Part shown: piece after piece, positions 28,449-64,000 of the stretch
Layout of the letters: each line of letters begins with the position of its first letter
How positions within the stretch are numbered: position 1 is the stretch's first letter
NCBI GenBank assembly: GCA_017431005.1
Contig: JAFRLY010000050.1
Coordinates: 104,435 to 168,434 of the forward strand
DNA from: Clostridia bacterium
GTDB taxonomy: Bacteria; Bacillota; Clostridia; Christensenellales; Aristaeellaceae
Direction of reading: 5' to 3'
DNA length: 64,000 nucleotides
Notes under the pieces: model-generated
What the model saw: only the letters and a program-made list of their open reading frames with translations
The model's database searches: none
What the model was told of the DNA's origin: nothing
Translations under genes and position numbers: made by a program

Positions 28449-29960
28449 ATGCTGAAGCCTTCTGCGCTGTTCAGCGACGGAGCGGTGCTCTGCAGAGACA
28501 AGGAAATACGGATTTTCGGGGATACGGACGCCGGCGCGGAGCTCCGGATTGAGCTGCGCGGTCCGGCGGGCGAGCTGCTGGCGGAAGCGGCCTGCGCCGC
28601 GGCGGAGGACGGGCGCTTTCTGGCCCTGCTGCCGCCCCAGCCGGCGCGGAGCGGCTGCGCCCTGCGGTTCATCGGAAAAACGGAGGAGTGCGGGGCGCGG
28701 GACGTCGCGATCGGCGACGTGTACCTGGCGGGCGGCCAGAGCAACATGGAATGGGAGCTGCGGTACGCTCAGGAGGGTCCGGAGGAAATCGCGTCCCACG
28801 AGGATCCGCAGCTGCGCTTCTTTACGGTGCCCAGAAAGGCTTACGTATGCGACGATCAGCGGCAGGCCTTTGACAGCACGCGCTGGGAGGCCGTCACCCC
28901 GGGCGGGAACGGCTCGGTCAGCGCCGTCGCGTACTTTTTCGCCGCCGCGCTGCGGAAGCGGCATCCCGATATTCCCGTGGGCATAATCGGATGCTACTGG
29001 GGCGGCACGTCCGTGACCTGCTGGATGCCGGAGGAAACGCTGCGCCGCCTGGAAGAGGGTCGGGCGTATCTGGAAAGGGACGCGCAGCTGGCGGCGGGAA
29101 AGAGCATGGAAACCTACCTGCGGGAGGAGGCTGTCTTCCGGGAAAACCTGGACGCCTGGAGCCTGCAGGTGGAGCAGTATAAACAGGAACATCCGGGCGC
29201 GCCCTGGCGGGACATCCAGAGCGCCTGCGGGCCGTGCCCCTGGAATCCGCCCGCGGGTCCGGGCTCTCCCTACCGGCCCGGCGGCCTCGTGGATTCCATG
29301 CTGCTTCAGGTGGTTCCCGTTACGCTGACCGGCATTCTCTTCTATCAGGGGGAATCGGACGCGGACCTGACGGAGCACTACGACGAGCTGATGCTGGCGA
29401 TGCTGCTGCAGTGGCGGAAGCTGTTCCGGGACGCGGACCTGCCCTTCCTGTTTGTGCAGCTGCCGATGTGGCTGGACTGGGATGCCGCGGACACGTTCCG
29501 CTGGCCCGCCCTGCGCCTGGCCCAGGCCGCTGTCCGGGACACGGTACGGCATACGGGCATGATCTGTCTGCTGGACGAAGGGGAATACGGCAATCTGCAT
29601 CCCACAGCGAAGCGGGTGGTGGGCGAGCGCCTGCACCGGCTGGCGGAAACAATGCTTTACGGGGAGCCCGGCGGGGAATCGCCCCGGGCGACCGGAAAGT
29701 ATACGATGGGCCGGGAGCTGACCGTGACGCTCTCCGAGCCGGTCGCGGTCCGGAACGGCGGCGCGCCCGCGCTGCTGGAAATCGCCGGGGCGGACGGCGC
29801 GTTCCATCCGGCGGACGGGAGAATTTCCGGGAAGGAACTGCGCCTCCGGAGCCCGGAGGTTCCCTGCCCCGTACACGCACGCTATGCATGGACCGACTGG
29901 TCGGATCAGGTGAACCTGTTCGGCTTTACCGGGCTGCCGCTGGAGCCGTTCTGCCTGTAA
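28449..29960 (+). CDS. SGNH carbohydrate acetylesterase (sialate O-acetylesterase-like)
   Basis: This 503-residue enzyme has no signal peptide, so it acts in the cytoplasm. An N-terminal beta domain covers about residues 1-85. The SGNH block I GGQSNMEWEL has nucleophile Ser98, an IGCYWGG segment is near residue 180, FYQGESDA near 300, and the catalytic His384 lies in GNLHPTAKR. A C-terminal beta domain follows. In this operon the likely substrate is acetylated mannooligosaccharide brought in intact, since plant mannans are acetylated. The start is three bases after the GH130 stop. The third codon position is extremely GC-rich. Confidence 0.85.
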   Translation: MLKPSALFSDGAVLCRDKEIRIFGDTDAGAELRIELRGPAGELLAEAACAAAEDGRFLALLPPQPARSGCALRFIGKTEECGARDVAIGDVYLAGGQSNMEWELRYAQEGPEEIASHEDPQLRFFTVPRKAYVCDDQRQAFDSTRWEAVTPGGNGSVSAVAYFFAAALRKRHPDIPVGIIGCYWGGTSVTCWMPEETLRRLEEGRAYLERDAQLAAGKSMETYLREEAVFRENLDAWSLQVEQYKQEHPGAPWRDIQSACGPCPWNPPAGPGSPYRPGGLVDSMLLQVVPVTLTGILFYQGESDADLTEHYDELMLAMLLQWRKLFRDADLPFLFVQLPMWLDWDAADTFRWPALRLAQAAVRDTVRHTGMICLLDEGEYGNLHPTAKRVVGERLHRLAETMLYGEPGGESPRATGKYTMGRELTVTLSEPVAVRNGGAPALLEIAGADGAFHPADGRISGKELRLRSPEVPCPVHARYAWTDWSDQVNLFGFTGLPLEPFCL

Positions 29961-30007
29961 TTCCCCCGGAAAACAGGAAACAAACAAAGAAAGCCCGGCG
30001 GAAAAGG

Positions 30008-30037
30008 TTGACAGGAAAGGCATATTTAGAGTAAACT
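30008..30037 (+). promoter_or_regulatory. Promoter of the T-box leader
   Basis: TTGACA (30008-30013) and TAAACT (30032-30037) are spaced by 18 bp. Transcription would start near 30044, just at the base of T-box stem I. Confidence 0.65.
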
Positions 30038-30039
30038 GC

Positions 30040-30300
30040 CGATAACAGCTGAGACGGAGAGGTTTGCGGAGGACCGGCTGAAGAGACGCGGCGGATGGTG
30101 CGAGCCGCGGGAAGGTTCCGCTGACAGTCACTCCTGAGCCGGAAGGAAGAAAGCAGACGGCAAGTAGAGCCTTCCCGATGAAGCCGCGTTAAGGCGAAAG
30201 GCTTGACGGAGCCTGAGGGGCGGCTGCGGCCGCAAGTTTGAGTGGTACCGCGGGTGTGTATATTCACGCTCGTCTCAACAAAGCTTGAGACGGGCGTTTT
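30040..30300 (+). promoter_or_regulatory. T-box riboswitch, specifier probably GUC (valine)
   Basis: The T-box sequence AAGTTTGAGTGGTACCGCG is at 30234-30252, followed by a terminator (30267-30300). Stem I carries the apical GGATGGTGCGAG motif (30093-30104) and the closing CTCCTGAGC (30131-30139). Aligning that with the glyQS T-box, where the specifier is followed by one A and then a U/C-rich CUUGAGC, places the specifier at 30127-30129 = GTC. The bulge TGGT needs an A discriminator base, which tRNA-Val has. Uncharged tRNA-Val would therefore switch on the ligase gene. The T-box call is firm; the valine call is moderately firm. Confidence 0.9.
30267..30300 (+). terminator. Regulated terminator of the T-box leader
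   Basis: The 12-bp stem CGCTCGTCTCAA with TTGAGACGGGCG (two G-T pairs) ends in TTTT. It is the OFF state of the T-box; the antiterminator would use the ACCGCGG region instead. Confidence 0.9.
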
Positions 30301-30331
30301 CATTACCGCCGGGAAACAGGAGGGAAACGGC

Positions 30332-32629
30332 ATGGCACAGATGACAGGGCTGAATTTCAAGATTCAGGAAATGGCTCACCGCATCCGGGAGCTGCGGGAA
30401 ATTGAGAACTATACGATCGCCGAGATGGCGAAGAAGACGGGCGTGACCGAGCAGGAATATATTGACTGCGAAATGGGCCGGTCCGATCTGAACTTCGCGT
30501 TTCTGTACCGGTGCGCCTTGGCCTTCGGCGTGGACGTGGGGGACATTATCGAAGGCGAAAGCCCCACGCTGAATTCCTTCACGGTGACCCGCAGGGGAGA
30601 GGGGCAGCGGATTGAGGAAGCCCATGACATGGTTTACTATAACATGGCGGCTTCCTTCCGGAACCGGATTGCCGAACCGCTGTATGTGCAGGCGGCCTAC
30701 AGCGCGGAGGCGGAGCATGCGGACATCAAGCTGACCACCCATGAGGGGCAGGAATGCGACATCGTGATTCAGGGCCAGCTGAAGGTGCAGGTGGGTGAGC
30801 ACAGCGCCGTGCTGAATCCCGGGGACTCGATTTACTATGACAGCGGCACGCCCCATGGCATGATTGCCGTCGGCGGCGAGGACTGCCTGTTCTACGCGAT
30901 CGTTCTGAATCCCACCGGCGCGCCGATTCCGGAGCTGACGCCGGAGAAAATCCTGCCCGGCACAGCGCTGCAGGAGGTGCCGGCTGAGAACGGGAGAACC
31001 CGGGTCTGGCACAGGTTCGCGGACGTGGAGAAGGATAAGAACGGCACGCCTGTGAAGATCACCTTCAAGAACACGGAAAAATTCAACTTCGCGTTCGATG
31101 TAATGGACGCGATCGCGGCGGAGGTGCCCAACAAGCTGGCGATGGTGCACCTGGACAGGAACAAGGAGGAGCACCGGTTCACCTTCCGCGACATTCAGCG
31201 GGCGTCCAACCGCTGCGCCAACTATTTCAAGGCCCTGGGCATCCGGAAGGGCGACCGGGTTATGCTGGTGCTGAAACGGCACTATCAGTTCTGGTTCGCG
31301 ATTCTGGGTCTGGAAAAGATCGGCGCGATCGCGATTCCGGCGACCTGCCAGCTGCAGGAGCACGACTTCGAGTACCGGTTCAACGCCGCGGGCGTCAAGG
31401 CGATCCTGTGCACGGCGGACGGAGACACCGCAAACCAGGCGGAACGCGCCGCCAAGGACGCGCCGGGCCTGGAGCTGAAGCTGATCGTCAACGGCACCCG
31501 GGAGGGCTGGCATACCTTTGACGAAGAATACCTGATGTATTCCACCCATTACAACCGGCCTGAGGACGCGGCCTGCGGGGATGACCTGATGCTGATGTAC
31601 TTCACCTCGGGCACGACAGGATACCCGAAAATCGCCGCCCACAGCTTCAAGCATCCGCTGGGGCATCTGCATACGGCGAAATACTGGCACTGCGTGAATC
31701 CGAACGGGCTGCACCTGACCATTTCCGACACCGGCTGGGCCAAGGCCGGGTGGGGGAAAATCTACGGGCAGTGGCTCTGCGAGGCAGCCATCTTCGTTTA
31801 CGACTTTGACCGGTTTGACGCCGCGGATATTCTTCCGCTGTTCGCGAAATACCATATCACGACGTTCTGCGCGCCGCCCACGATGTACAGAATGCTGATC
31901 AAGCAGGATCTGAGCAAATATGACCTGTCTTCCGTCACCCATGCCTGCAGCGCCGGCGAGGCGCTGAACCCGGAGGTGTTCCGGCAGATTGAGAAGCAGA
32001 CCGGGCTTCAGGTCATGGAGGGCTTCGGCCAGAGTGAAAGCACCATGATTATCGGCAACCTGGCCGGCGCGGATCACAAGCTTGGGTCCATGGGCAAGGT
32101 GGCTCCGATCTATAAGGTGGAGCTGCTGGACGCGGAGGGAAAGCCGGTGCCCACCGGTACACCCGGAGAAATCTGCATCGATATTTCCGAAGGGATCCCG
32201 ATCGGCCTGCTGCGGGAGTATTACCGGGACGAGGAAAAGACCCGGGAGGTTATGCACGATGGCTGGTATCATACCGGCGATCTGGCCTGGCGGGATGAGG
32301 ACGGCTTCTACTGGTACGTTGGCCGGGCGGACGATGTGATCAAGTCCAGCGGCTACCGCATCGGACCGTTTGAGATTGAAAGTGTGATCATGGAGCTGCC
32401 CTATGTGCTGGAGTGCGGCGTCAGCGCTGCGCCGGACGAGGTGCGCGGACAGGTTGTCAAGGCCAGCGTTGTGCTGACAAAGGGAACGGAGCCTACCGAG
32501 GAGCTGAAAAAGGAAATCCAGAACTACGTCAAGCAGCACACGGCCCCGTACAAGTATCCCCGGATTGTGGTCTTCCGCGACGAGCTGCCCAAGACGGTCA
32601 GCGGAAAGATTCAGAGGGCCCTGCTGTGA
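30332..32629 (+). CDS. XRE-cupin domain fused to an acyl-CoA-synthetase-like AMP ligase
   Basis: The 765-residue product has an XRE helix-turn-helix (about residues 10-65), a cupin (about 115-200, with PGDSIYYDSGTPHG), then a complete ANL ligase (about 250-765). Ligase motifs: YFTSGTTGYPK phosphate loop, GFGQSES, YHTGDLAWRDEDG, KSSGYRIGPFEIES hinge, and PKTVSGKIQR with the catalytic Lys. The ligase half resembles medium/branched-chain acyl-CoA synthetases. Valine-type T-box control suggests activation of isobutyrate to isobutyryl-CoA, which anaerobes can carboxylate reductively to the valine keto acid. That substrate is inference. The ribosome site AGGAGGG is upstream of ATG 30332. Confidence 0.85.
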   Translation: MAQMTGLNFKIQEMAHRIRELREIENYTIAEMAKKTGVTEQEYIDCEMGRSDLNFAFLYRCALAFGVDVGDIIEGESPTLNSFTVTRRGEGQRIEEAHDMVYYNMAASFRNRIAEPLYVQAAYSAEAEHADIKLTTHEGQECDIVIQGQLKVQVGEHSAVLNPGDSIYYDSGTPHGMIAVGGEDCLFYAIVLNPTGAPIPELTPEKILPGTALQEVPAENGRTRVWHRFADVEKDKNGTPVKITFKNTEKFNFAFDVMDAIAAEVPNKLAMVHLDRNKEEHRFTFRDIQRASNRCANYFKALGIRKGDRVMLVLKRHYQFWFAILGLEKIGAIAIPATCQLQEHDFEYRFNAAGVKAILCTADGDTANQAERAAKDAPGLELKLIVNGTREGWHTFDEEYLMYSTHYNRPEDAACGDDLMLMYFTSGTTGYPKIAAHSFKHPLGHLHTAKYWHCVNPNGLHLTISDTGWAKAGWGKIYGQWLCEAAIFVYDFDRFDAADILPLFAKYHITTFCAPPTMYRMLIKQDLSKYDLSSVTHACSAGEALNPEVFRQIEKQTGLQVMEGFGQSESTMIIGNLAGADHKLGSMGKVAPIYKVELLDAEGKPVPTGTPGEICIDISEGIPIGLLREYYRDEEKTREVMHDGWYHTGDLAWRDEDGFYWYVGRADDVIKSSGYRIGPFEIESVIMELPYVLECGVSAAPDEVRGQVVKASVVLTKGTEPTEELKKEIQNYVKQHTAPYKYPRIVVFRDELPKTVSGKIQRALL

Positions 32630-33093
32630 TCAATACAACCCTGTGCTATATATACCGGGACGATGAGGTGCTGATGCTGCACCGGGTCAAGAAGAAAAAC
32701 GACCTGAACCACGACAAGTGGATCGGCCTGGGCGGCAAGTTTGAGGACCGGGAAAGCCCGGAGGACTGCGTGCTGCGGGAGGTCCGGGAGGAGACGGGGC
32801 TGACCCTGACCTCCTGGCGGTACCGCGGGATCGTCACCTTCGTCTCCGACCTGTACGAGACGGAATATATGCATCTGTTCACGGCTGACGGGTTTACCGG
32901 AGAAATGACGGAATGCGATGAGGGTGAGCCGGCCTGGATCAAAAAGGAAAAACTGGATGAGCTTCCGCAGTGGGAGGGAGACAGGATCTTCCTGAAGCTG
33001 CTGGATGAGGAAGCGCCTTTCTTCTCCCTGAAGCTGGTTTACGAGGGGGATACGCTGAAGGAGGCCGTGCTGGACGGCAGAAGGATCGTCTGA
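32626..33093 (+). CDS. Nudix hydrolase (MutT/8-oxo-dGTP diphosphatase-like)
   Basis: A 155-residue Nudix protein with the complete box GGKFEDRESPEDCVLREVRE followed by ETGL (about residues 35-58). The MLHRVKKKNDLNHDKWIGLGGK region resembles small MutT-type 8-oxo-dGTPases. The start is GTG 32626, overlapping the ligase stop (GTGA), so translation is coupled and the gene is under the same T-box. The pairing with an amino-acid-type control is probably operon hitch-hiking. Confidence 0.85.
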   Translation: MINTTLCYIYRDDEVLMLHRVKKKNDLNHDKWIGLGGKFEDRESPEDCVLREVREETGLTLTSWRYRGIVTFVSDLYETEYMHLFTADGFTGEMTECDEGEPAWIKKEKLDELPQWEGDRIFLKLLDEEAPFFSLKLVYEGDTLKEAVLDGRRIV

Positions 33094-45259: not shown

Positions 45260-45390
45260 ATGATATAACCTCCGTCCTTCCCCGGCGACGCAGCGCGCGG
45301 GTCCGCAATTTCCATTCCGTGCAGTCCGCACGAACAATCATCAGTATAGCAAGCAGGAGAGCAGGGGACAAGGCATGAACATAAAAAAAA

Positions 45391-45512
45391 CCGCCTGCGC
45401 TCAGACCGGGCAACCCCGCAGCACATCCATCCAACGCTTACTGCTGCTTCCGTCAGGACCTGACAGGGTTCACGCCAATGGATCGCACGGGACCCAGACT
45501 TCATCGCGCAAA
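45391..45512 (-). ncRNA. ffs: Signal recognition particle RNA (4.5S type)
   Basis: On the minus strand the conserved SRP core reads GAACCCTGTCAGGTCCTGAC then GGAAGCAGCAGTAAG, which forms the Ffh-binding hairpin. Flanking arms (GGTCCCGTGCGATCC with GGATGGATGTGCTGCGGGG) make the long helix. There is no Alu domain, so it is the short form. A T8 run follows the 3' end (45390-45383). Ends are approximate. It has its own promoter. Confidence 0.9.
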
Positions 45513-45522
45513 CGGCTTAAAC

Positions 45523-45551
45523 AGTATACCTTTTTTTATGGCGTAAAGCAA
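45523..45551 (-). promoter_or_regulatory. Promoter of the SRP RNA gene
   Basis: On the minus strand TTGCTT (45551-45546) and TATACT (45528-45523) are spaced by 17 bp. The -35 lies inside the hairpin at 45540-45571. Confidence 0.65.
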
Positions 45552-45571
45552 GGACTTTTTGCTTTTCCGCC
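45540..45571 (-). terminator. Hairpin after the GH28 gene
   Basis: On the minus strand AAAGCAA pairs with TTGCTTT, with an outer GGCG/CGCC helix, 11 bases after the GH28 stop. No T-run follows, so termination may be weak and some transcripts could run into the SRP RNA gene. Confidence 0.45.
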
Positions 45572-45581
45572 TGCAGATACC

Positions 45582-47150
45582 TCAGGGATTAACGTCGTAA
45601 AGGCGGATCATTTCCCGGATGTTTGCAGACCGCGGCGTGATCTGAATATTCTCAAGCCGCACATGGTCCGCATGGCGGATCCAGAGTCCGTACGCGTCCA
45701 CGTCGCCATGGGCGTTGCTTTCAGGATAATCCGTCAGAAACTCATCGAAAACAGCGGGGATATGCAGGATCTCCTGATTGTCCCGGTAGGTGACCCGATA
45801 GTTTTCCACCGCTATATCGGAAATGGCTTTGCGGACAGGATTTCCGGCTTTCGTGACATCTGCGTATCCTGTCAGAATGGCCGGGAGCTCCGCACCGGTT
45901 GCCTCAACATCAGAAACGCGGACATGTGATACAGAACCTCCCCAGTACGGGGTATCCGGATCCTCTGAATACGGGGCCCCTGCCTGGTTTCTCCGGTTCA
46001 GGAGAATATAAAGCGGGCACTGAACACCGTCCATCCGGATGTTCCGGACCGTGATATTCTCCACGTGTGATCCGTCGCAGCTTTCAATGGAAATACCGCT
46101 GACGGATCCCGGATAGATATCAGGCATGATAAAATCACAGTTTTCCAGCAGGACATCCCGGATGTCATGGCGGGTTCCCGTGCCGATTTTGAAGGCGTTC
46201 ATCACGGTGACGACGGTGCAGTCATGCAGATGCAGATGTTCAGAGGGGCGGCGGGTATATACCGGGTTCTTGATGCAGAGCCCGTCATCCGCGCAGGAGA
46301 TGAAGCAGTGATCCACCTCCGCATGGCTGCAGCCGGAAATGTCAATACCGTCGGTATTCGCGACGTGGCGGTTATCGTCGATCACAACATTCCGGATGAG
46401 GATATGGTCGCTGGCCTCCGGATGCAGCGTCCAGCACATGGAATCGCGGAGAACAATGTTCTCCACCCGGACCTGCGTGCAGCGCAGCAGCCAGACCATG
46501 GCGCTCGGACGACGGAGTACGGGCTTGCCTTCCCCGTACTTATCCTCCGCGTAGCGGATCCGCTCCCGGTAAAAGGTCCGTATGGAACCGGGAATTGTGT
46601 TGATCTCAGCTGCCTGCTCCCGCGTCGGAAGCATCGTGACCGGGAAGGGCTCCAGGGCAGGCTTTTGCCGGGGCTCATGCACATACCACTCCCCCTGCCC
46701 GTGGATGACGCCGCCGCCTGTAATACAGATGTTCTCCGCGCCGACAGCCAGAATGAAAGCACCGCCGCTGGATTCATCCCCGAAGTCCTGTGTTCCTTCT
46801 ATCCGGCGGATCAGGTCGTCCGCATTGCGGGATGCCACCAGCATACTGCCGGAGGCGATGAAGAGCGTGGTGTTGCTGTAAAGCTGAACTGTTCCGCTGC
46901 GGTAGCATCCGCCGTCCACCAGCACCACGCCGCCGCCGGCGTCCCTGCAGGCCTCGCAGGCACGCCGGATGGGCTCCGTATTCAGCAGATCGCCGGGCAA
47001 AGCGCCGAAGGACCGGATATCAAAGACAGGCACGCCCTCCGGAAGCTTTTGCGCGGCTGAAATATATTCCGGATAGGGAATGTTTTCATAGTAATCACCG
47101 GGATAAATCTTTCCCAGCCCGGGATAGGATACAGCTTCAGGCTGAAGCAT
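45582..47150 (-). CDS. GH28 family glycoside hydrolase (polygalacturonase-like)
   Basis: The 522-residue product has a pectate-lyase-like N-terminal start (VFDIRSFGALPGDLLNTEPI, residues 42-61) and a right-handed beta helix. GH28 signatures present are NTDGIDISGC and CADDGLCIKN, which hold the catalytic Asp residues. The usual GHG is replaced by GTGTRHD and the RIK site is not obvious, so activity may differ from plain polygalacturonases. There is no signal peptide, so it should act on imported oligosaccharides. It follows the transporter operon beyond a terminator hairpin. Confidence 0.85.
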   Translation of the reverse strand: MLQPEAVSYPGLGKIYPGDYYENIPYPEYISAAQKLPEGVPVFDIRSFGALPGDLLNTEPIRRACEACRDAGGGVVLVDGGCYRSGTVQLYSNTTLFIASGSMLVASRNADDLIRRIEGTQDFGDESSGGAFILAVGAENICITGGGVIHGQGEWYVHEPRQKPALEPFPVTMLPTREQAAEINTIPGSIRTFYRERIRYAEDKYGEGKPVLRRPSAMVWLLRCTQVRVENIVLRDSMCWTLHPEASDHILIRNVVIDDNRHVANTDGIDISGCSHAEVDHCFISCADDGLCIKNPVYTRRPSEHLHLHDCTVVTVMNAFKIGTGTRHDIRDVLLENCDFIMPDIYPGSVSGISIESCDGSHVENITVRNIRMDGVQCPLYILLNRRNQAGAPYSEDPDTPYWGGSVSHVRVSDVEATGAELPAILTGYADVTKAGNPVRKAISDIAVENYRVTYRDNQEILHIPAVFDEFLTDYPESNAHGDVDAYGLWIRHADHVRLENIQITPRSANIREMIRLYDVNP

Positions 47151-63324: not shown

Positions 63325-63398
63325 CGGGGTGTAGCGCAGTCTGGTAGCGCACGTGCTTTGGGAGCATGGGGCCGGGGGTTCGAATCCCTTCACCCCGA
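63325..63398 (+). tRNA. tRNA-Pro (TGG)
   Basis: Acceptor stem CGGGGTG/CACCCCG, anticodon loop TTTGGGA with anticodon TGG, GGTTCGAAT in the T loop. The CCA end is not encoded. Confidence 0.95.
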
Positions 63399-63420
63399 CT
63401 CAGATCGTTACCCTGTACGT

Positions 63421-63493
63421 GGCTCCGTGGTCAAGAGGCCTAAGACACCGCCCTTTCACGGCGGCTACCCGGGTTCGAATCCCGGCGGAGTCA
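63421..63493 (+). tRNA. tRNA-Glu (TTC)
   Basis: Acceptor stem GGCTCCG/CGGAGTC, anticodon loop CTTTCAC with anticodon TTC on a CCGCC/GGCGG stem. The CCA end is not encoded. Confidence 0.95.
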
Positions 63494-63512
63494 CTTTTCT
63501 TCCTTCCGATAT

Positions 63513-63586
63513 GGGCCTTTAGCTCAGTTGGTCAGAGCGGCCGGCTCATAACCGGTTGGTCCGGGGTTCAAGTCCCTGAAGGCCCA
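63513..63586 (+). tRNA. tRNA-Met (CAT)
   Basis: Acceptor stem GGGCCTT/AAGGCCC, anticodon loop CTCATAA with anticodon CAT. The D arm and acceptor look like the elongator form; an Ile2 tRNA (lysidine-modified CAT) cannot be excluded by eye. CCA is not encoded. Confidence 0.9.
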
Positions 63587-63598
63587 CAGCCTTTTCCT

Positions 63599-63675
63599 GG
63601 CCCGGTAGCTCAGTTGGTTAGAGCGCCAGCCTGTCACGCTGGAGGTCGTGGGTTCGAGCCCCATCCGGGTCGCCA
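63599..63675 (+). tRNA. tRNA-Asp (GTC)
   Basis: Acceptor stem GGCCCGG/CCGGGTC with a G discriminator, anticodon loop CTGTCAC with anticodon GTC, and an encoded CCA end. Confidence 0.95.
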
Positions 63676-63718
63676 CTTTTCCTGACGGATCCGCTGGCCA
63701 TGTTGGAAAGAGCTTCGT

Positions 63719-63794
63719 GCTGGCGTAGCTCAATTGGCAGAGCAGCTGATTTGTAATCAGCAGGTTGCGGGTTCGAGTCCCATCGCCAGCTCCA
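63719..63794 (+). tRNA. tRNA-Thr (TGT)
   Basis: Acceptor stem GCTGGCG/CGCCAGC, anticodon loop TTTGTAA with anticodon TGT, and an encoded CCA end. Confidence 0.95.
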
Positions 63795-63824
63795 TCCCTT
63801 TGGATCAAGAGGGAAAATCAATAT

Positions 63825-63909
<85 letters not shown>

Positions 63910-63915
63910 TCTTCT

Positions 63916-64000
63916 GCGGGAATGGCGGAATTGGCAGACGCGCATGATTCAGGTTCATGTGTACGTACGTACTTGCAGGTTCAAGTCCTGTTTCCCGCAC
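63916..64000 (+). tRNA. tRNA-Leu (CAG), 3' end at window edge
   Basis: Acceptor stem GCGGGAA/TTCCCGC, anticodon loop TTCAGGT with anticodon CAG, and a long variable arm containing the palindrome GTACGTACGTAC. The window ends one base after the discriminator, so whether CCA is encoded is unknown. Confidence 0.93.

Follow-up and report, generated by a model that had tools for sequence, protein, structure and literature searches.

The window analyzed here is a stretch of 64,000 nt of contig JAFRLY010000050.1 (104,435-168,434, forward strand), and feature coordinates are window positions. A promoter and a T-box leader precede a gene in which an XRE-type helix-turn-helix (HTH) domain, a cupin domain and an acyl-CoA ligase are joined in one chain (Table 1). 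The T-box, its specifier, the terminator and the protein domains can all be read directly from the sequence.

Table 1. Features of the T-box leader and the ligase fusion gene in the window.
Feature	Position	Strand	Basis
Promoter: TTGACA (30008-30013), 18-nt spacer, TAAACT (30032-30037)	30008-30037	+	Motif scan, 1 found vs 0.1 expected in shuffles
T-box leader (RF00230), full length	30042-30280	+	cmscan of 29950-30400: model 1-219, 74.9 bits, E 1.6e-16
Stem I region of T-box	30047-30140	+	Stem I model R1, 88.7 bits; the window sequence is one of the 26 from which R1 was built
Specifier codon GUC (valine), followed by A	30127-30129	+	Covariance alignment and same-genus comparison
Antiterminator hairpin	30238-30278	+	Predicted fold, -15.3 kcal/mol
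Conserved T-box sequence, UGGU at 30243-30246	30240-30253	+	Sequence and folding
Intrinsic terminator hairpin, 13 pairs, then U-rich tail	30266-30297	+	Predicted fold, -21.0 kcal/mol
Ribosome-binding site AGGAGGG	30318-30324	+	By eye
XRE-cupin-acyl-CoA ligase fusion, 765 aa	30332-32629	+	ATG at 30332, stop ends at 32629; domain searches
HTH domain, residues 17-76	30380-30559	+	HTH_19, E 4.6e-8
Cupin domain, residues 131-190	30722-30901	+	Cupin_2, E 2.7e-13
AMP-binding (ANL) domain, residues 261-617	31112-32182	+	E 3.6e-62
Codon 470 (GCC, Ala), residue tracking the specifier	31739-31741	+	Alignments; four residues before Trp474, which aligns to MacsMa pocket Trp259
AMP-binding_C domain, residues 681-759	32372-32608	+	E 2e-21

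The leader covers the RF00230 covariance model end to end. Its score lies below the gathering score of 93, because of which a gathering-threshold Rfam scan misses it; the default scan having failed in this way, E-value mode on short stretches was used instead. No RF00230 match above the gathering score was found in 14 of 61 genomes, that of the window among them; in the latter genome, the T-box studied here ranks second of five RF00230 matches. Four further T-boxes of the same genome were recorded at L042, L043, L044 and L045.

Like the valine-class T-boxes of RF00230, the window leader is full-length, with a specifier, a UGGU bulge, an antiterminator and a terminator, the last of which overlaps and competes with the antiterminator in the predicted folds. 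The UGGU bulge calls for an A as the discriminator base, and the covariance alignment places the specifier on a valine codon rather than on a codon for an amino acid without a branched chain. Both the full leader with a GUC specifier and the bulge demanding an A discriminator had been proposed in the preliminary description of this DNA, and both were recovered here. In same-genus leaders aligned with MAFFT and read by eye, the specifier column holds GUC, GUA or GUG in 27 of 27, the window included; this set excludes L021, where the leader is cut, L016 and L039, which do not match the motif pattern, and L025, which is the same place as L071. Since the third base varies while the amino acid is constant, this is the pattern expected of a true valine specifier. 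The T-box is thus real, and its specifier is valine. The TTGACA element was likewise present in 21 of 21 same-genus leaders compared, including that of the window.

All domains of the fusion protein score above their Pfam cut-offs, both those that define the ANL acyl-CoA ligase (AMP-binding, 210.8 bits; AMP-binding_C, 77.1 bits) and those of the XRE-cupin part (HTH_19, 33.3 bits; HTH_3, 29 bits; Cupin_2, 49.9 bits), in agreement with the earlier description of the three kinds of domain in a single chain. Full-length orthologs with 85-95% identity were identified in 30 of 36 same-genus genomes. A longer reading of the gene from a GTG at 30242 is not credible, as this start lies inside the T-box. 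The best NCBIfam match of the fusion is MbcS (NF047394), at 436 bits against an equivalog cut-off of 850, and the protein was therefore not filed as MbcS. A NUDIX gene lies directly 3' of the fusion (32626-33093, plus strand), and its GTG at 32626 overlaps the fusion stop. On contig 12 of the same genome, a second ligase with 50% identity (L046:7411-9087, minus strand) has a separate HTH-cupin gene upstream; a T-box was looked for at this second ligase and none was found.

Over the ligase part, the closest solved sequence is 3etc (605.7 bits, the next being 356.7), which we take to be MacsMa of Methanosarcina acetivorans. MacsMa prefers 2-methylbutyrate, and its Trp259 is reported to be critical for substrate binding (PMC10455477). 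The window ligase keeps this pocket tryptophan, whereas the archaeal enzyme was matched as a chain without the HTH-cupin part and carries Gly where the window has Ala470.

In relatives, the fusion has a paralog of about 62% identity, which in some of them is the next gene in tandem. Specifiers were surveyed with a Stem I model (R1) built from 26 leaders and run on 75, then 80 sources. A T-box was identified upstream of 160 of 193 ligase genes; the 33 ligases at which R1 found none were left out of the 160. The two types of fusion differ sharply in their control RNA. All 56 T-boxes of window-type fusions, hereafter valine type, have a valine specifier (GUA 47, GUC 7, GUG 2), while those of the paralog, hereafter isoleucine type, have AUC in 95 of 96 cases (two of them read by eye) and GUA in one. 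Comparing specifiers across homologs of the fusion, as had been suggested, thus separates the two types by amino acid. Ligases that have no HTH-cupin domain in the chain also have T-boxes, with AUC in six and GUA in two.

The specifier is mirrored by a single residue of the enzyme. A scan from residue 201 onward for columns that split 56 valine-type from 95 isoleucine-type rows returned one perfect column, residue 470, which is Ala in the valine type and Gly in the isoleucine type. As these 151 rows chose the residue, they are no test of it. All nine rows outside the scan agree, namely the paralog-like fusion L090, with a valine T-box and Ala, and the eight ligases without HTH-cupin in the chain, so that in the first set all 59 ligases under a valine T-box have Ala and all 101 under an isoleucine T-box have Gly. 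A later set, fetched once the rule had been formed, was drawn from other families of the class as 60 stretches that span both types and standalone ligases, chosen from the listed matches blind to specifier and residue 470. It gave Ala in 14 of 14 valine and Gly in 22 of 22 isoleucine cases, 27 of its 63 ligases (16 Ala, 10 Gly, 1 Met) being left out because no T-box was found there. Without near-copies of the first set, 34 of the 36 (13 valine, 21 isoleucine) are retained and all are concordant. In total, residue and specifier match in 196 of 196 ligases, or in 191 of 191 when near-copies are removed at 98% identity, at which the first 160 rows fall into 157 clusters and two of the 36 later rows copy earlier ones.

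The match was also viewed on phylogenies. On a quick IQ-TREE tree of the 160 ligases with a T-box, from which column 470 had been removed, the specifier changes six times and the residue six times. Supported independent pairs were concordant in five of five cases, with a p value of 0.0625, the minimum attainable with five pairs. A FastTree tree of all 193 ligases, with column 470 kept, has nine changes of the valine/isoleucine label.

In the alignment, residue 470 lies four positions before MacsMa Trp259, near the predicted acyl pocket, and is Gly in the aligned chain. This placement rests on the sequence alignment to 3etc and on the residue numbers given in PMC10455477, to which the 3etc chain is fitted by an offset of 23 (YHTGD at 431-435 and Gly459-Tyr460-Lys461). 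A simple reading of Ala470 would be that one extra methyl group on the enzyme compensates for a substrate that is one carbon smaller.

Several relatives carry the ligases within a longer gene cluster. In L120, from goat cecum, the order is an isoleucine T-box, a ligase, a valine T-box, a ligase, an NTPase-like gene, a ferredoxin-like ORF, VorB, the beta and gamma subunits of VOR (2-ketoisovalerate:ferredoxin oxidoreductase) and a branched-chain aminotransferase; a leucine T-box with a LeuA-like gene lies there in the opposite orientation. Most of these genes are found in similar order in L049 and L050, within the reach of the stretches. The names NTPase and ferredoxin are by-eye motif readings, and no NCBIfam match was found for the NTPase-like gene. 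The preliminary description had called for a search for the oxidoreductase, which in relatives lies within this cluster. VorB and IlvE of the relatives' clusters exceed their cut-offs (in L049 of genome G044, 554 bits against 399 for VorB and 388.8 against 250 for IlvE), whereas the beta and gamma subunits of VOR in L050 fall below the curated cut-offs (116.8 against 261.9 and 114 against 235 bits). A search of the genome of the window, 85% complete, found no VorB.

Eighty named loci, many of them cut by contig ends, were compared for this arrangement; the valine type is present in 52, the isoleucine type in 64 and both in 36. VorB was identified in 36 and IlvE in 23 of these loci on either strand, and both genes were on the ligase strand in 21. 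Thirty of the 52 valine-type loci have VorB in the same orientation as the ligase, vs 4 of 28 loci with the isoleucine type only. In two same-genus genomes examined, VOR forms an operon of its own that does not adjoin the fusion.

A third module was seen beside the two ligases. A leucine T-box (CUC or CUG) heads a LeuA-like gene at 13 survey places, in L050 and, judging from visual inspection, also in L258 and L259 (L050:47-4288, L120, L131, L144, L146-L149, L152, L154, L156, L178, L191, L195, L258 and L259). At several of these loci an acyl-CoA ligase is next, its front part a TIM barrel as judged by eye. At L048, the score of the LeuA-like protein falls far short of the LeuA cut-offs. Perhaps this module is an isovalerate-to-leucine arm. 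At L087 (1619-1878, minus strand), a T-box lies directly 5' of the NTPase-like gene, the ferredoxin-like ORF and VorB (63.7 bits). This T-box, the second of L087, was read as GAA-specific by R1, an assignment that was not retained; the Rfam alignment has insertions, and AUC, CUG or GAA are all possible. This T-box heads no ligase and was excluded from the counts.

Gene content was compared over 396 genomes of the order, the three draws (each 142 genera) being taken as identical genomes. The 38 valine-type genomes were picked by identity and bit score among the matches listed; a few more are possible, for example G259, which has no ilvC match. In this sample, ilvC is present in none and VorB in 36 of the 38 valine-type genomes, as compared with 127 and 168 of the other 358 genomes (p 2e-7 for ilvC and 2e-9 for VorB, values that ignore shared ancestry). 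The corresponding numbers for ilvC and VorB are 12 and 38 of 42 genomes with other fusions, 33 and 88 of 92 with a ligase homolog only, and 82 and 42 of 224 without a listed match. An ilvD match above the cut-off was found in 0 of 28 carriers vs 8 of 8 comparators that had been selected for having ilvC, two carriers having a match below the cut-off. In the genome of the window, ilvC, like VorB, was sought and not found. This bacterium appears no longer to have the standard pathway to valine.

Comparison among relatives shows the paralog-specific specifiers, the pathway clusters, the absence of ilvC and the match between residue and codon. We favor, with a probability of about 0.83, the reading that valine shortage, acting through the valine T-box, leads the ligase to form isobutyryl-CoA, from which valine is made by way of reductive carboxylation. 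In this scheme, the transcription-attenuating T-box would bind uncharged tRNA-Val and let the polymerase read into the ligase gene. The product, an AMP-forming short branched-chain acyl-CoA ligase, would activate isobutyrate from the gut fluid, VOR would carboxylate isobutyryl-CoA to 2-ketoisovalerate, and the branched-chain aminotransferase IlvE would convert the latter to valine. A ligase under valine control that activates isobutyrate or a similar acid had been inferred earlier, and the valine specifier, the clusters with VOR and IlvE, the distribution of ilvC (0/38) and VorB (36/38) among the sampled genomes and the nearest known enzymes lend support to it.

The most serious alternative is that isobutyryl-CoA from the ligase primes the synthesis of branched-chain fatty acids, the T-box responding because this primer normally comes from valine, which is short. 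In Staphylococcus aureus, MbcS feeds fatty acid synthesis by activating isobutyrate and 2-methylbutyrate (PMC10026030), and it is the best NCBIfam match of the fusion, albeit one below the family cut-off. However, relatives cluster the ligase with VOR and IlvE, and the lack of ilvC in sampled valine-type carriers (0/38) argues for a need for valine itself. Supply of amino acids is also the better fit for two further observations, the ligase dedicated to isoleucine and the third module headed by a leucine T-box. We consider the lipid reading unlikely, although the ligase may have a side role in lipids. Enzymes of the VOR type can work in both directions, and some anaerobes use them to ferment amino acids; the ligase and VOR could therefore run catabolically from valine to isobutyrate. 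Such a direction is extremely improbable, considering that the T-box turns genes on under amino acid scarcity, that the ligase belongs to an ATP-spending, AMP-forming family and that sampled carriers are without ilvC (0/38).

XRE-cupin proteins are commonly regulators, which raises the question whether the HTH-cupin part could be the main actor, as a DNA-binding regulator for which the ligase domain only makes the effector. Consistent with this, residues 1-195 are more alike within a type than between types (identity 0.51-0.71 vs 0.40-0.59 over 41 tandem pairs), which is not so for parts of the ligase. The residue that tracks the specifier nevertheless lies in the ligase, and ligases without the domain in the chain also have isoleucine or valine T-boxes (8 in the first survey, 2 in the later set). 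Moreover, no operator was found; a dyad around the -10 box, the arms of which seemingly co-change among 21 same-genus promoters, is not above chance, as 324 of 1000 random re-pairings of the left halves equal it. We regard a mainly regulatory role as very improbable and retain the synthesis of valine from isobutyrate as the probable function of the locus.

Even so, the HTH-cupin part may have a type-specific task, as hinted at by residues 1-240 staying type-specific; windows over 406-510 and 541-645 are more weakly so. Within-type identity exceeds between-type identity in every window of the HTH-cupin part, whereas parts of the ligase are without such a gap. In the ligase windows 271-330, 496-555 and 676-735, the likeness within tandem pairs is at least as high as that between loci of the same type (41 tandem pairs), and windows 316-375 and 631-690 come close to it. 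This is a sign of concerted evolution between tandem copies in these three windows of the ligase, and not in the HTH-cupin part. In our view, the latter may respond to a product or an amino acid, adjusting the activity of the enzyme or of its own promoter.

Neither the class of T-box nor the chemistry is new. It has been established for many years that rumen microbes draw on isobutyrate, 2-methylbutyrate and isovalerate for amino acid synthesis. In the 1960s-70s, Allison and co-workers reportedly described how branched short-chain acids are reductively carboxylated there to give amino acids. The precursor roles in the rumen are isobutyrate for valine and 2-methylbutyrate for isoleucine (PMC7356843); methanogens of the rumen build isoleucine and leucine from acids of this kind (PMC10658910). 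The system outlined here would share the precursors, and adds candidate genes for the conversion together with their control RNA. An account of a T-box on such ligases was not found in the literature searched, outside the scope of which most subscription journals lie; while the window T-box controls an acid-activating ligase, the term "CoA" occurs 0 times in the main texts of both a T-box survey from 2008 (PMC2494555) and the TBDB paper (PMC7778990).

For uncultured gut Clostridia, the locus provides candidate genes and a control RNA for turning these acids into amino acids, and genomes become readable for a need of branched short-chain acids. The match between codon and residue would report predicted substrate specificity from sequence alone, with a one-residue prediction, Ala470 to Gly. 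A broader hypothesis, which we hold tentatively and at somewhat less than even odds, is that in one group of gut Clostridia, scavenged branched short-chain acids are the sole source of valine, isoleucine and leucine, each amino acid having its own acid-activating module under its own T-box. Codon and residue would then form a specificity code, and the HTH-cupin part would be a second, protein-level sensor for the same amino acid.

Other RNA features were also observed. In a relative of the class, a HEARO RNA (L244:2601-2813, minus strand, 156.6 bits) lies upstream of a ligase homolog. The window itself contains a large bacterial signal recognition particle RNA (45373-45587, minus strand) and an array of seven tRNA genes, for Pro, Glu, Met, Asp, Thr, Tyr and Leu (63325-64000, plus strand).
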